Positions 11,587-22,141 of a stretch of DNA of 46,801 nucleotides are shown piece by piece. This DNA is from an uncultured Erysipelotrichaceae bacterium (lineage in GTDB: Bacteria; Bacillota_I; Bacilli_A; RF39; UBA660). The translations under genes and the position numbers were made by a program. Numbering within the stretch: the first letter of the stretch is position 1; each line of letters opens with the position of its first letter. Location of the stretch: positions 1 to 46,801 of the forward strand of contig CADAMI010000007.1 of assembly GCA_902788975.1 (NCBI GenBank), in the 5' to 3' direction. The notes beneath the pieces were generated by a model that saw nothing but the letters and a program-made list of their open reading frames with translations, searched no databases and had not been told where the DNA came from.

Positions 11587-11599
11587 TAAGGTGGTAAAA

Positions 11600-12208
11600 A
11601 TGGCAAAATTATATTTTAGATATGGCGCAATGGGTTGTGGTAAAACTAGAGATATTATAAAGGTATGGTATAACTATAAGGAAAAAGGAAAAAATGCAAT
11701 TATTATTAAACCGGGTATAGATACTAAAGGTAATGATAAAATTGTGTCACGTGATAATAGTGAATTAAATACCGATTATATAATAAAAAGTAATGATAAT
11801 ATTTATGATATTATTAGTAAACATAAGTTAAAATACAACTTAGATTGTATTTTAGTAGATGAAGCTCAATTTTTAGAAAGACATCATGTCGAAGAATTAA
11901 CTGATATCTGTGATGATTTAGATATTACAGTTATGTGTTATGGGCTTAGAGCCGATTTCTTAGATAATTTATTTCCTGGTAGTGCCGCTTTATTCGCTTA
12001 TGCAGATGTGATTGAAGAAATGAAAACGATATGTGAATGTATGGATGGCGCAACCCGAAATGTAAGATTTGTCAACGGACAACCAGTTTTTGAAGGAGAA
12101 CAAGTGGCAATCGACGGAGAAGACAAAGTTACATATGTTTCAATGTGTCGTAGTTGTCGTAAAAAACTAGTTAGAAAAATGAATAAAGATAGGTTATATC
12201 CAAGATAA
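11600..12208 (+). CDS. tdk: Thymidine kinase, class II
   Basis: A 202-residue enzyme that phosphorylates thymidine in the salvage pathway. The P-loop is GAMGCGKT (9-16), the catalytic base lies in DEAQF (87-91, Glu88), and the thymidine-binding lasso is GLRADFLDNLFPGS. The zinc site is provided by Cys145, Cys147, Cys183 and Cys186; the first pair is CxC rather than the usual CxxC. The ATG at 11600 is preferred over a GTG at 11591 because AAGGTGG precedes it. The terminator stem starts inside the last codons. Confidence 0.95.
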   Translation: MAKLYFRYGAMGCGKTRDIIKVWYNYKEKGKNAIIIKPGIDTKGNDKIVSRDNSELNTDYIIKSNDNIYDIISKHKLKYNLDCILVDEAQFLERHHVEELTDICDDLDITVMCYGLRADFLDNLFPGSAALFAYADVIEEMKTICECMDGATRNVRFVNGQPVFEGEQVAIDGEDKVTYVSMCRSCRKKLVRKMNKDRLYPR

Positions 12209-12259: not shown

Positions 12260-12289
12260 TTGACATTAATATTATTAATTTGTTATAAT
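12260..12289 (+). promoter_or_regulatory. Sigma-A promoter of the small-peptide locus
   Basis: TTGACA at 12260-12265, an 18-nt spacer and TATAAT at 12284-12289 with an extended -10 TG at 12281-12282. Both hexamers are perfect. Transcription would start near 12296, giving a leader of about 55 nt before the peptide ATG. Confidence 0.85.
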
Positions 12290-12351
12290 AATACTTGGAA
12301 TATTTGATAGTTGGGTGATGCCTCCAACCTTTTATGTAAGTAGGTGATGCG

Positions 12352-12444
12352 ATGAGTACCAAAGAATTAAAAAACTTGCTTAACATATTACTTATCATCG
12401 TAATATTACTTATTGCATTGCTATTTGTAGTGCTTATGAAATAA
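12352..12444 (+). CDS. 30-residue hydrophobic peptide, candidate type I toxin
   Basis: The peptide is M-S-T-K-E-L-K-N-L-L followed by one uninterrupted run of Leu, Ile and Val to residue 28, then Met-Lys; it would form a single membrane helix with a short charged N-terminus. AGGTGAT lies 3 nt before the chosen ATG, with the leader hairpin GTTGG/CCAAC (12310-12328) upstream. The locus has its own consensus promoter, a perfect 13-bp inverted repeat directly after the stop, and a possible convergent transcript, the layout of type I toxins such as TxpA, BsrG and Fst. Sequence identity to a named toxin family is not claimed; a non-toxic small membrane protein is the alternative. Confidence 0.6.
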   Translation: MSTKELKNLLNILLIIVILLIALLFVVLMK

Positions 12445-12447
12445 AAG

Positions 12448-12476
12448 TTCACCTAACTAAAGCTTAGTTAGGTGAA
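12448..12476 (-). terminator. Perfect 13-bp hairpin, probable terminator of a convergent antisense RNA
   Basis: TTCACCTAACTAA, a 3-nt loop AGC and TTAGTTAGGTGAA form a perfect stem 3 nt after the peptide stop. On the minus strand it is followed by CTTTTATTTC, a U-rich tail; on the plus strand no U tract follows. It therefore reads best as the end of a minus-strand RNA. Confidence 0.6.
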
Positions 12477-12491
12477 TACCAAAACTTATGT

Positions 12492-12533
12492 GAGGGATCA
12501 CTCAACACGCTATATCAAGTGTTCCTCTTTTTT
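12492..12533 (+). terminator. Terminator of the peptide mRNA
   Basis: GAGG and AACAC (with an 8-nt bulge between them) pair with GTGTT-CCTC, followed by TTTTTT. The transcript from the promoter at 12260 would be about 235 nt. Confidence 0.55.
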
Positions 12534-12710
12534 ATTGTATGAAGTTTCCTTCATCTATATACATTATATAATACATTAAATAAAAAAACAAGTTTATCGA
12601 TTAAGAATATTCTTAAATATTATGAATATTTATTAAATGCATAAAGATTTATAATTGTAATTCCTCCTTTATAAATTTATAATAAATAGTGTAAATAAAT
12701 AATAAAATTA
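12534..12710. other. Noncoding stretch before ppdK
   Basis: No gene is visible between the small-peptide locus and the ppdK promoter. It is very AT-rich and contains a perfect 16-bp palindrome (TTAAGAATATTCTTAA, 12601-12616), which could be an operator or chance in such AT-rich DNA. Confidence 0.4.
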
Positions 12711-12740: not shown

Positions 12741-12767
12741 ATAAGAGTTAGGAAAGGAATGGTAAAA

Positions 12768-15395
12768 ATGAAATATGTATATGCCTTTAAAGAAGGAAAT
12801 GCAGATATGAGAAATTTACTTGGTGGTAAAGGTGCTAACTTAGCAGAAATGACTAATTTAGGCTTACCAATACCACAAGGATTCACAGTTACAACTGAAG
12901 CTTGTACAGAATACTATAACTGTGGTAAAAAAATATCAAGTGAAATAGAAAAGCAAATATTTGATGCTTTAGCAGAACTTGAAAAAATACAAGGAAAGAA
13001 ATTTGGCGATGTTGCTGATCCATTACTTGTATCAGTTCGTAGTGGAGCTAGAGCAAGTATGCCTGGTATGATGGATACTATCCTTAATTTAGGATTAAAT
13101 GATGAAGCAGTTGAAGGATTTGCTAAAAAGACAGGTAATCCAAGATTTGCTTACGATAGTTATCGTAGATTTATTCAAATGTACTCTGATGTTGTTATGG
13201 AAGTTAATAAATCTTTCTTTGAAAAGATTATTGATGAAATAAAAGAAGCAAAGGGTATTAAATATGATACCGAACTAACTGTCGATGATTTAAAAGAATT
13301 AGTTAAGAGATTTAAAGAAGTTTATAAAGATCATATGAAGGGAGAAGAATTTCCACAAGATCCTAAAGTTCAATTAATGGGAGCGGTTAAGGCTGTATTT
13401 AGATCTTGGGATAATCCAAGAGCCATCGTTTACAGAAGAATGAACGATATTCCAGGAGACTGGGGAACTGCTGTCAATGTTCAAGCAATGGTATTTGGTA
13501 ATATGGGAGATACATCTGGAACAGGTGTTGCCTTCACAAGAAATCCAAGTACTGGTGAAAAAGGTATTTATGGTGAATACTTAATTAATGCTCAAGGAGA
13601 AGATGTTGTTGCTGGCGTTAGAACTCCACAACCAATTACTAAACTTGCTGAAGATTTACCAGAATGCTATGAAGAATTTATGAAAATTGCTAATAAACTT
13701 GAAGAACATTATAAAGATATGCAAGATATGGAATTTACTATTCAAGAAGGAAAATTATATTTCTTACAGACTAGAAATGGTAAAAGAACAGCAAGAGCTG
13801 CTATCAATATCGCTTGCGATTTAGTAGATGAAGGTATGATTACTCCAGAAGAAGCAATCTCTAGAATCGATGCCAAGAGTTTAGATCAATTATTACATCC
13901 AATGTTTGATGATAAAGCTTTAAAGAACGGCGAGGTTATTGGTGAAGCATTACCAGCTAGTCCTGGTGCTGCTGCAGGTCGTGTATACTTTACAGCTGAT
14001 GAAGCTAAGAAAATGGGTAAAGGTGGCAAGGGAGAAAGAGTTATCCTTGTTAGACTTGAAACAACTCCAGAAGATATTGAAGGTATGGTAGCCAGCCAAG
14101 GTGTTTTAACAGTACGTGGTGGAATGACTTCACATGCAGCGGTAGTTGCTCGTGGTATGGGTACTTGCTGTGTATCTGGATGCGGTGATATTACTATTAA
14201 CGAAGAAGCTAAGTCATTTACTTTAGGTGGACATACTATCAAAGAAGGAGATTATATCTCATTAGATGGTTCTACTGGTAAAATATATTTAGGTGATATT
14301 AAAACTGTTGATGCTACTGTTAGTGGTAATTTTGGAAGAATCATGGCTTGGGCTGATGAATTTAGAAGATTAAAAATTAGAACTAATGCCGATAATCCAA
14401 GAGATACTAAAAAAGCTATTGAACTTGGCGCTGAAGGTATCGGACTATGTAGAACAGAGCACATGTTCTTTGAAGCAGATCGTATTCCTAAAATTAGAAA
14501 AATGATCTTATCTGAAACGGTGGAAGCTAGAGAAGCAGCATTAAATGAATTAATTCCTTTCCAAAAAGGTGACTTTAAAGCAATGTACAAAGAACTAAAT
14601 GGCTTACCTATGACAGTCAGATATTTAGATCCACCACTACATGAATTCTTACCAAGTGATCCAGAAGATATTAAAGCTTTAGCTAAGGATATGAATGTAA
14701 CTGAAGAACACTTAAAGAATAAGATTGCTGAACTACATGAATTTAACCCAATGATGGGTCACCGTGGATGTAGACTTGCAGTAACTTATCCAGAAATAGC
14801 TAAGATGCAAACCAGAGCTTTAATGGAAGCGGCTATTGAAGCAAGTGAAGAAATGGGTATCAAGATTACTCCAGAAATAATGATTCCGCTTGTAGGCGAA
14901 AAGAAAGAACTTAAATTCGTTAAAGATGTTGTTATTGAAGTAGCTGAACAAGTTAAAAAAGAAAAGAATTCTGATATTGAATATCATATTGGTACAATGA
15001 TTGAAATTCCAAGAGCAGCCTTACTTGCTGATGAAATCGCTACTGAAGCTGAATTCTTCTCATTTGGAACTAATGATTTAACTCAAATGACATTTGGATT
15101 CTCAAGAGATGATGCTGGTAAATTCTTAGATGCTTACTATCAAAATAAGATTTATGAATCAGATCCATTTGCAAGACTTGACCAAAACGGTGTTGGTAAA
15201 CTAGTTGAAATGGCTGCTAAATTAGGTAGACAAACAAGACCAGATCTTCATTTAGGCATCTGTGGAGAACATGGAGGGGAACCATCTTCAATTGAATTCT
15301 GCCACAAAGTAGGACTAGATTATGTATCATGCAGTCCATACAGAGTACCTATTGCTAGACTTGCCGCTGCACAAGCTGCAATCAATAATAAGTAA
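12768..15395 (+). CDS. ppdK: Pyruvate, phosphate dikinase
   Basis: An 875-residue enzyme interconverting pyruvate, ATP and Pi with PEP, AMP and PPi, often working in the glycolytic direction in anaerobes. The N-terminal nucleotide-binding domain begins MKYVYAFKEGNADMRNLLGG, with GMPGMMDTILNLGLN further on. The swivelling domain has the phosphohistidine motif GGMTSHAAVVARG (His456), and the C-terminal PEP/pyruvate barrel ends with GICGEHGG (catalytic Cys832). All domains are complete and the length is normal. The second ATG (12768) is used because AGGAAAGGA ends directly before the first ATG at 12759 but 9 nt before the second. It is monocistronic, with its own promoter and terminator. Confidence 0.97.
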   Translation: MKYVYAFKEGNADMRNLLGGKGANLAEMTNLGLPIPQGFTVTTEACTEYYNCGKKISSEIEKQIFDALAELEKIQGKKFGDVADPLLVSVRSGARASMPGMMDTILNLGLNDEAVEGFAKKTGNPRFAYDSYRRFIQMYSDVVMEVNKSFFEKIIDEIKEAKGIKYDTELTVDDLKELVKRFKEVYKDHMKGEEFPQDPKVQLMGAVKAVFRSWDNPRAIVYRRMNDIPGDWGTAVNVQAMVFGNMGDTSGTGVAFTRNPSTGEKGIYGEYLINAQGEDVVAGVRTPQPITKLAEDLPECYEEFMKIANKLEEHYKDMQDMEFTIQEGKLYFLQTRNGKRTARAAINIACDLVDEGMITPEEAISRIDAKSLDQLLHPMFDDKALKNGEVIGEALPASPGAAAGRVYFTADEAKKMGKGGKGERVILVRLETTPEDIEGMVASQGVLTVRGGMTSHAAVVARGMGTCCVSGCGDITINEEAKSFTLGGHTIKEGDYISLDGSTGKIYLGDIKTVDATVSGNFGRIMAWADEFRRLKIRTNADNPRDTKKAIELGAEGIGLCRTEHMFFEADRIPKIRKMILSETVEAREAALNELIPFQKGDFKAMYKELNGLPMTVRYLDPPLHEFLPSDPEDIKALAKDMNVTEEHLKNKIAELHEFNPMMGHRGCRLAVTYPEIAKMQTRALMEAAIEASEEMGIKITPEIMIPLVGEKKELKFVKDVVIEVAEQVKKEKNSDIEYHIGTMIEIPRAALLADEIATEAEFFSFGTNDLTQMTFGFSRDDAGKFLDAYYQNKIYESDPFARLDQNGVGKLVEMAAKLGRQTRPDLHLGICGEHGGEPSSIEFCHKVGLDYVSCSPYRVPIARLAAAQAAINNK

Positions 15396-21395: not shown

Positions 21396-21422
21396 ATGAA
21401 AAACTCTTGAACATTCAAGAGT
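21396..21422 (-). terminator. Terminator of tRNA-Cys
   Basis: ACTCTTGAA/TTCAAGAGT stem; on the minus strand it is followed by TTTT and lies just after the tRNA. Confidence 0.75.
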
Positions 21423-21432
21423 ATAATTCTTA

Positions 21433-21507
21433 TGGAGGACCTAGTCGGATTCGAACCAACGATCAGGGAGTTGCAGTCCCACGCCTTAGCCACTTGGCTA
21501 TAGGTCC
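21433..21507 (-). tRNA. trnC: tRNA-Cys (GCA)
   Basis: On the minus strand GGACCTA pairs with TAGGTCC as acceptor stem, with discriminator U and encoded CCA. The anticodon loop is CTGCAAC (anticodon GCA), and GGTTCGAATCC forms the T arm. U73 and GCA are both diagnostic for tRNA-Cys. The anticodon stem has a terminal U-U mismatch. Confidence 0.95.
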
Positions 21508-21592
21508 ATTGCTTATCCATTATAACAAAAAAATTATTGATTTTCAATATATTATATTAAAAAAAATTAAAAATGTGCTAGGGAGGAAAAAA

Positions 21593-22141
21593 ATGAAAAT
21601 AAAAGTAGGAGTATCAAACAGACATATCCATCTATGTAAAAAAGATGCCGATATTTTGTTTGGAAATGATTATAAATTTCATAAAAGAAATGATTTAACG
21701 CAAAAAGGAGAATATGCATGCGAAGAAACCGTTATCGTTAGTACTGATAAATATGAATTTCCCCATGTAAGAGTTATGGGACCACTTAGAGATTACACCC
21801 AAGTAGAAGTATCAAGAGATGATGCCTCACTTCTTGAAATTAATCCGCCAATGAGAGATTCCGGTGATTTAGAAAATAGTGAAGCTGTGTGGATTACCGG
21901 TCCAAATGGGAAAATATATAAAGAAAATTGCTGCATTTTGGCAACAAGACATATTCATGGTAATAAAAATAATCTTCCAAACCATAATAATAGAGATATA
22001 GTTAGTGTTATCTTTAATGGTAAGGAAATTGATAATGTGCATATTAAAATGAAAGATAGTTATGAACTTGAGATGCATATTGATAAAAGTGATGCGAATG
22101 AATTTGGAATAGAAAATGGTGACTATATCGACTTAGAATAA
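21593..22141 (+). CDS. pduL: PduL-like phosphate acyltransferase (phosphotransacylase)
   Basis: A 182-residue enzyme that exchanges phosphate and CoA on acetyl or propionyl groups, probably in acetate/ATP metabolism. The two PTAC domains are recognisable: VGVSNRHIHL with metal-binding histidines at the start, then RVMGPLRDYTQVEVSRDDA, and the second His motif ATRHIHGN. No microcompartment genes are nearby and the start has no targeting extension, so a stand-alone Pta function is likely. The ATG at 21593 follows GGGAGG; upstream in-frame sequence runs through the tRNA and is not coding. Confidence 0.9.
   Translation: MKIKVGVSNRHIHLCKKDADILFGNDYKFHKRNDLTQKGEYACEETVIVSTDKYEFPHVRVMGPLRDYTQVEVSRDDASLLEINPPMRDSGDLENSEAVWITGPNGKIYKENCCILATRHIHGNKNNLPNHNNRDIVSVIFNGKEIDNVHIKMKDSYELEMHIDKSDANEFGIENGDYIDLE

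Follow-up and report, generated by a model that had tools for sequence, protein, structure and literature searches.

The window analysed here, a stretch of 46,801 nt from an uncultured Erysipelotrichaceae bacterium, holds between positions 12260 and 12591 two convergent predicted transcription units, one for a putative toxin mRNA of ~235 nt and one for an antisense RNA of ~115 nt, whose overlap with the mRNA is confined to the 3' UTR. The unit lies downstream of tdk (thymidine kinase, 11591-12208; Pfam PF00265) and upstream of ppdK (12759-15395), and its features are given in Table 1.

The toxin promoter, which the first-pass annotation described as a pair of perfect hexamers with an extended -10, indeed matches the consensus at 12 of 12 positions, and the mRNA is predicted to start near 12296 on the plus strand. 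Among 84 related units, the -10 hexamer TATAAT is kept at 85-100% per position, and the TG extension is found in 61. The leader hairpin, the 30-codon hydrophobic ORF, the perfect 13-bp hairpin just after the stop codon with its U tail on the minus strand, and the plus-strand terminator had also been noted at that first reading, and each of them was recovered. In the window copy the Shine-Dalgarno sequence is weak, and the leader folded alone does no better than shuffled sequences. The minus-strand promoter, previously reported as a weak one inside 12260-12533, proved to be a good promoter located outside that range. Its -35 element reads TTG in 100/96/96% of the same 84 units at a spacing of exactly 17 nt, neither of which was selected for by the search pattern. 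Beyond these elements, the analysis revealed a widespread multi-copy family, pairing between the 5' and 3' ends of the mRNA, three hairpins in the antisense RNA, and remnants in which only the antisense RNA is left.

Table 1. Predicted features of the unit between tdk and ppdK (positions in the window)
Feature	Positions	Strand	Details
Toxin promoter	12260..12289	+	-35 TTGACA (12260-12265), 18-nt spacer, extended -10 TGTTATAAT (12281-12289)
mRNA leader, ~56 nt	12296..12351	+	first ~28 nt (12297-12325) complementary to the mRNA 3' end
Leader hairpin GTTGGGTGATGCCTCCAAC	12310..12328	+	sequence and fold
Shine-Dalgarno AGGTG	12342..12346	+	GGAGG in most relatives
30-residue hydrophobic peptide, putative toxin MSTKELKNLLNILLIIVILLIALLFVVLMK	12352..12444	+	purifying selection on the family; identical peptide in L002
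Toxin mRNA terminator	12492..12533	+	hairpin 12492-12527 and T6, -9.9 kcal/mol; doubles as 3' strand of the 5'-3' helix
Antisense promoter	12563..12591	-	-35 TTGTTT (12591-12586), 17-nt spacer, -10 TATAAT (12568-12563); start about 12556
Antisense RNA, putative antitoxin	12441..12556	-	about 115 nt, three hairpins; match to model R1 with E 5.4e-17
Antisense 5' hairpin ATGAAG-GAAA-CTTCAT	12539..12554	-	different hairpin GCAAGAGTTCTTGC in its place in L172
Antisense terminator hairpin, 13 perfect pairs	12448..12476	-	U tail CUUUUAUUU to about 12438

Copies, hosts and insertion site

The 1.23-Mb MAG from which the window derives contains at least 8 copies of the unit (about 8, with 8 strong ones), which share 70-85% identity or are partial. 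One of these, L002, encodes an identical peptide with silent differences only, while the others encode clearly related peptides, such as MNKKDFLIFALVIIILLLILLLFIVLI. When species genomes were scanned for the antisense core, at least 116 stretches were returned. The hosts among the matches listed, all of them uncultured MAGs, were uncultured Bacilli, 'Tenericutes', Erysipelotrichaceae, Bacillales, bins labelled Firmicutes or Clostridium, Ca. Coprosoma and Ca. Ventrenecus. Since the unit recurs about 8 times in one genome and at hundreds of loci elsewhere, it is not a chance arrangement.

A search of related genomes and plasmids had been suggested at first reading, and the two halves of that suggestion fared differently: the covariance model used for the family search, R1, matched 71 of the 98 genomes of the window's taxonomic family, with 0 to 22 copies each, whereas plasmid records gave no match. 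The richest genomes hold 22 (G083) and 17 (G018) matches, and all such counts are lower bounds, as R1 misses copies of the L172 type with a different antisense 5' hairpin. In an even sample of the class, R1 matched 16 of ~31 genomes of the window's family and 1 of ~216 others. The host group probably corresponds to RF39 of GTDB. The lone match outside the family (L181; G276:C32:11743-11854) lies near a contig end, and is therefore probably a case of transfer or of a wrongly binned contig. Whole units also occur in tandem or closely paired (L090, L101, L106, L123 and L150; G079:C14; G061:C64). Furthermore, a subgroup marked by MELLVLALIVILYTIIAIKNK (L038, L057, L106 and L110) is without the usual toxin promoter and leader; in two of its members, L057 and L110, there is an additional ribosome site, together with a short ORF (MH.N.ITGGLWNY) that runs across the toxin start in another reading frame and recalls the mok leader ORF of hok.

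Comparison with databases assigned the unit to no known RNA or protein family, and that possibility was rejected. Rfam at the gathering score returned nothing besides tRNAs, and at a relaxed threshold the best sub-threshold hit had an E-value of 0.17 (19.4 of 75 bits). Searches of Pfam, NCBIfam and PHROGs with 35 peptides gave stray weak matches and no family, in agreement with the earlier remark that the peptide resembles no known toxin. Fst/Ldr peptides carry the signature PXXXG, which is absent here: the peptide of the window contains neither P nor G and has no NCBIfam match. An origin from a phage or plasmid was likewise rejected, there being no match in phage records, as in those of plasmids, and no occurrence of the antisense core motif in IMG/VR. 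Elsewhere in the window, a tRNA-Cys gene (21433-21507, minus strand) lies antisense within the first part of the ORF at 21407-22141 (plus strand), which therefore probably starts further downstream.

At the tdk-ppdK site itself, the unit is missing from two genomes of the same genus (L163 and L168) and inverted in a third (L009). Judged from these genomes, gain, loss or inversion of the unit takes place over short times.

Pairing between the mRNA ends and the antisense RNA

The first ~28 nt of each mRNA pair with its last ~40 nt, the sole interruption being an additional loop of ~7 nt within the 3' copy. The mean energy of this duplex is -34.5 kcal/mol with the unit's own 3' end versus -19.0 kcal/mol with the 3' ends of other units, with z-scores of -8.3 relative to shuffles and -3.5 relative to distantly related units. 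The helix was present in 82 of 84 computed full-length folds, and compensatory double changes were found at 10 of its 12 outer pairs in the non-redundant alignment. Its imperfect pairs are G.U far more often than A.C (167 versus 44, p 5e-18), and this excess persisted after redundancy removal (110 versus 29) and in 22 non-redundant units (45 versus 13). Drift of a DNA inverted repeat is expected to yield G.U and A.C in about equal numbers; the excess therefore indicates that an RNA helix is selected, rather than a DNA repeat.

These data bear on the idea that the unit is a MITE-like miniature mobile repeat, in which promoters and terminators would be incidental and the inverted repeats would be transposon ends. 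Its dispersed, multi-copy, intergenic occurrence would fit such an element, as would its presence, absence or inversion between tdk and ppdK, but covariation between the repeat partners, in the form of compensatory changes and G.U pairs, would not be needed for DNA ends, purifying selection acts on the peptide (see below), and no target-site duplication was seen at tdk-ppdK (by eye, in diverged flanks). The G.U bias and the codon-position pattern largely refute this explanation, which we consider very improbable.

The antisense RNA folds at -35.3 kcal/mol (z -4.66 against dinucleotide shuffles), and eight pairs of its middle hairpin covary. In L172 (G000:C2:35900-36800), where the layout is normal, the 5' hairpin is GCAAGAGTTCTTGC instead of the usual ATGAAGGAAACTTCAT, entirely different in sequence and alike in shape; it thus seems that the shape, rather than the sequence, of this hairpin counts. 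Complementarity of the antisense RNA to the mRNA is complete over the final ~90 nt of the latter and does not extend to its coding or ribosome-binding region; that to the translation start does not exceed chance (-20.3 kcal/mol for its own unit, -20.3 kcal/mol for other units). Blocking of the ribosome site is therefore not expected and was rejected as a mechanism, leaving action only via the 3' end.

The same result weighs on a further reading, namely that of a module of the par/Fst type, in which the antisense RNA would block the ribosome-binding region through repeated elements. The convergent layout and the 3' overlap are indeed those of par of pAD1 (PMC7472228), and the leader and the antisense region do have a repeated sequence in common. 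Here, however, the repeat is inverted and the antisense RNA has the same sense as the leader, so that the two could not pair as DRa and DRb do; furthermore, the terminators are separate rather than shared and the peptide is devoid of PXXXG. A par/Fst-type module thus appears hardly tenable.

The 3' strand of the 5'-3' helix also serves as the terminator stem and as the segment targeted by the antisense RNA. It follows that the antisense RNA holds a same-sense copy of the leader and not its complement; in this copy, the G.U wobbles are replaced and the 7-nt loop is added. In equilibrium folds, exposure of the Shine-Dalgarno sequence was unchanged when the 3' UTR was blocked or removed (0.17 versus 0.17 versus 0.18), and a Shine-Dalgarno switch upon loss or blocking of the 3' end was rejected on these grounds. 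With predicted exposure constant at about 0.17-0.20 in full, 3'-blocked, 3'-truncated and nascent forms, these folds do not account for a translation switch.

The window's own genome also contains an orphan antisense RNA (L005; G000:C62:211-376), the toxin of which is truncated at its 5' end and which may possibly protect in trans against paralogues. Computed duplex energies among the paralogues of this genome were strongest for the own pair in every case, and they suggest that cross-talk between close paralogues, the orphan L005 included, is possible.

Linkage, peptide selection and decay of the toxin gene

In eight genomes, a profile search with the peptide only (E<=1e-3), in which the RNA motif was not used, produced 48 matches, 45 of them with a convergent antisense RNA immediately downstream. 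The three exceptions are L171, in which the antisense gene is partly deleted, L172 with its different antisense 5' hairpin, and L173, in which an apparent insertion-sequence end is found and the promoter is gone. Four peptide subfamilies gave pN/pS values of 0.33, 0.41, 0.51 and 0.31, while a fifth, of five sequences, showed no purifying signal (0.99). In most subfamilies the peptide is therefore very probably translated and conserved.

A Shine-Dalgarno sequence and an intact ORF, coding for hydrophobic peptides of mostly 20-34 residues, were present in 98 of 120 units, and the remaining 22 keep the antisense RNA without an intact toxin ORF preceded by a Shine-Dalgarno sequence. These 120 are the units with enough upstream sequence, found via the antisense motif, and cannot alone count toxin-only loci; the toxin-only rate rests on the peptide-anchored search, which partly answers this bias. 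The lesions are of many kinds: frameshifts (L048, L050, L086 and L118), a missing start codon (L064), a deletion within the gene (L123), absence of both promoter and Shine-Dalgarno sequence (L069), an apparent transposase insertion (L080), the 5' truncation of L005, and complete loss in about nine units. In the eight-genome search, 12 of 61 RNA matches were without a peptide match, while toxins without an intact antisense RNA were few and mostly damaged. Loss of the toxin first, with retention of the antisense RNA, is what is predicted for a toxin held in check by its antitoxin.

The peptide might alternatively be a small membrane protein of benefit to the cell, such as a regulator of stress or of the envelope, with the antisense RNA serving as an ordinary tuning regulator rather than as an antitoxin. 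Purifying selection and the maintenance of many copies would suit such a protein, and a passage of PMC7472228 mentions roles in stress response and metabolism proposed for some type I toxins. Against this, the toxins are repeatedly broken with the antisense RNA kept, close relatives differ by gain, loss and inversion at the site, and the copy number varies from 0 to 22, all of which is the behaviour of an accessory module. We therefore regard this alternative as unlikely.

Proposed mechanism and relation to known type I systems

Taken as a whole, the anatomy of the unit, its conservation, covariation and linkage, the selection on its peptide and its toxin-first decay are best explained by a chromosomal type I toxin-antitoxin module with a 5'-3'-closed mRNA and an antisense RNA acting at the 3' segment, to which we assign a probability of roughly 0.8. 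The first-pass annotation had already proposed a type I module of two convergent RNAs; such a module, its RNAs sharing an overlap at the 3' ends, is the best-supported reading of the predicted elements.

In such a module, the strong promoter would drive the ~235-nt mRNA for a 30-residue, single-helix membrane peptide which, by analogy with other type I toxins, may be toxic to the cell when translated, while the convergent promoter would drive the ~115-nt antisense RNA with its three hairpins. The mRNA would close upon itself by pairing of its extreme 5' end with the terminator strand at the 3' end. In the majority of relatives, the Shine-Dalgarno sequence would additionally lie within a local leader hairpin, and the outcome would be a stable and poorly translated mRNA. 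The antisense RNA would bind the same 3' segment and displace the leader; the resulting duplex would mainly be destroyed by RNase III in the style of TxpA/RatA, and/or the freed leader would keep the Shine-Dalgarno sequence hidden in the style of BsrG/SR4. It is conceivable, if on balance somewhat doubtful, that the antisense RNA acts as a leader mimic, its same-sense copy of the mRNA 5' end taking the 3' strand from the leader through strand displacement. In that case a single short inverted repeat would govern whether the mRNA closes, how stable it is and how far it is exposed to the antitoxin, and we know of no type I system with such an inverted-repeat logic.

Type I modules easily escape detection, as toxin and RNA are both tiny and poorly conserved. 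With R1, this family, which reaches 22 copies in a genome of ~1-1.5 Mb, can be searched for at the RNA level in a large set of uncultured Bacilli from the gut; a literature search for type I modules together with Mollicutes or RF39 found nothing relevant, and no such module described in this group. From sequence comparison, the family appears to be new in its peptide, host group and inverted-repeat arrangement, and known in kind. With its many paralogues, its antisense RNAs left as orphans and its naturally empty sites, it offers a good test bed for the role of chromosomal type I modules, for cross-talk between paralogues, and for the competition between a 5'-3'-closed mRNA and its antisense RNA.

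Among known systems, the topology of TxpA/RatA of Bacillus subtilis, in which a 3'-end overlap of about 75 nt leads to RNase III degradation (PMC4147584), was aptly invoked at first reading. Both systems combine the mRNA of a small hydrophobic peptide with a convergent antisense RNA that overlaps its 3' end only and does not pair with the translation start (here, the antisense RNA spans 12441-12556 and the ORF ends at 12444). In contrast to TxpA, of 59 residues, the peptides described here have 25-34 residues without a sequence match, the units are chromosomal and multi-copy in uncultured Bacilli and were not found in phages or plasmids, and the mRNA ends pair. In BsrG/SR4 of B. subtilis, degradation is accompanied by a distant change at the Shine-Dalgarno sequence (PMC4147584). 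The 3' overlap is of similar length here, and binding of the antisense RNA far from the start could similarly alter Shine-Dalgarno sequestration; however, no sequence relation was found, and the 5' partner is formed by the first nucleotides of the mRNA, of which the antisense RNA carries a second copy.

The par system of pAD1 has convergent RNAs with a 3' overlap, direct repeats DRa and DRb, a shared bidirectional terminator, and an upstream helix that sequesters the 5' end and makes the toxin RNA more stable (PMC7472228). The convergent RNAs, the membrane peptide of ~30 residues, the repeats at both mRNA ends and the sequestration of the 5' end are shared, whereas inverted repeats and two separate terminators take the place of direct repeats and a common one. 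Closure of the 5' and 3' ends keeps AapA and hok mRNAs stable and silent, and AapA3 carries an anti-Shine-Dalgarno at its 3' end (PMC6733600). AapA/IsoA of Helicobacter pylori (PMC6733600) and hok/Sok resemble the present unit in this long-distance closure (computed here), in having several chromosomal copies, and in placing the Shine-Dalgarno sequence in local hairpins. They differ in that their antisense RNA targets the 5' part or the gene start, and not, as here, the 3' UTR only; unlike in AapA3, the 3' end pairs with the extreme 5' end of the mRNA rather than with the Shine-Dalgarno sequence. By analogy, the unit may work like TxpA/RatA or BsrG/SR4 with a 5'-3' closure like that of AapA or hok, while being a member of none of these families.
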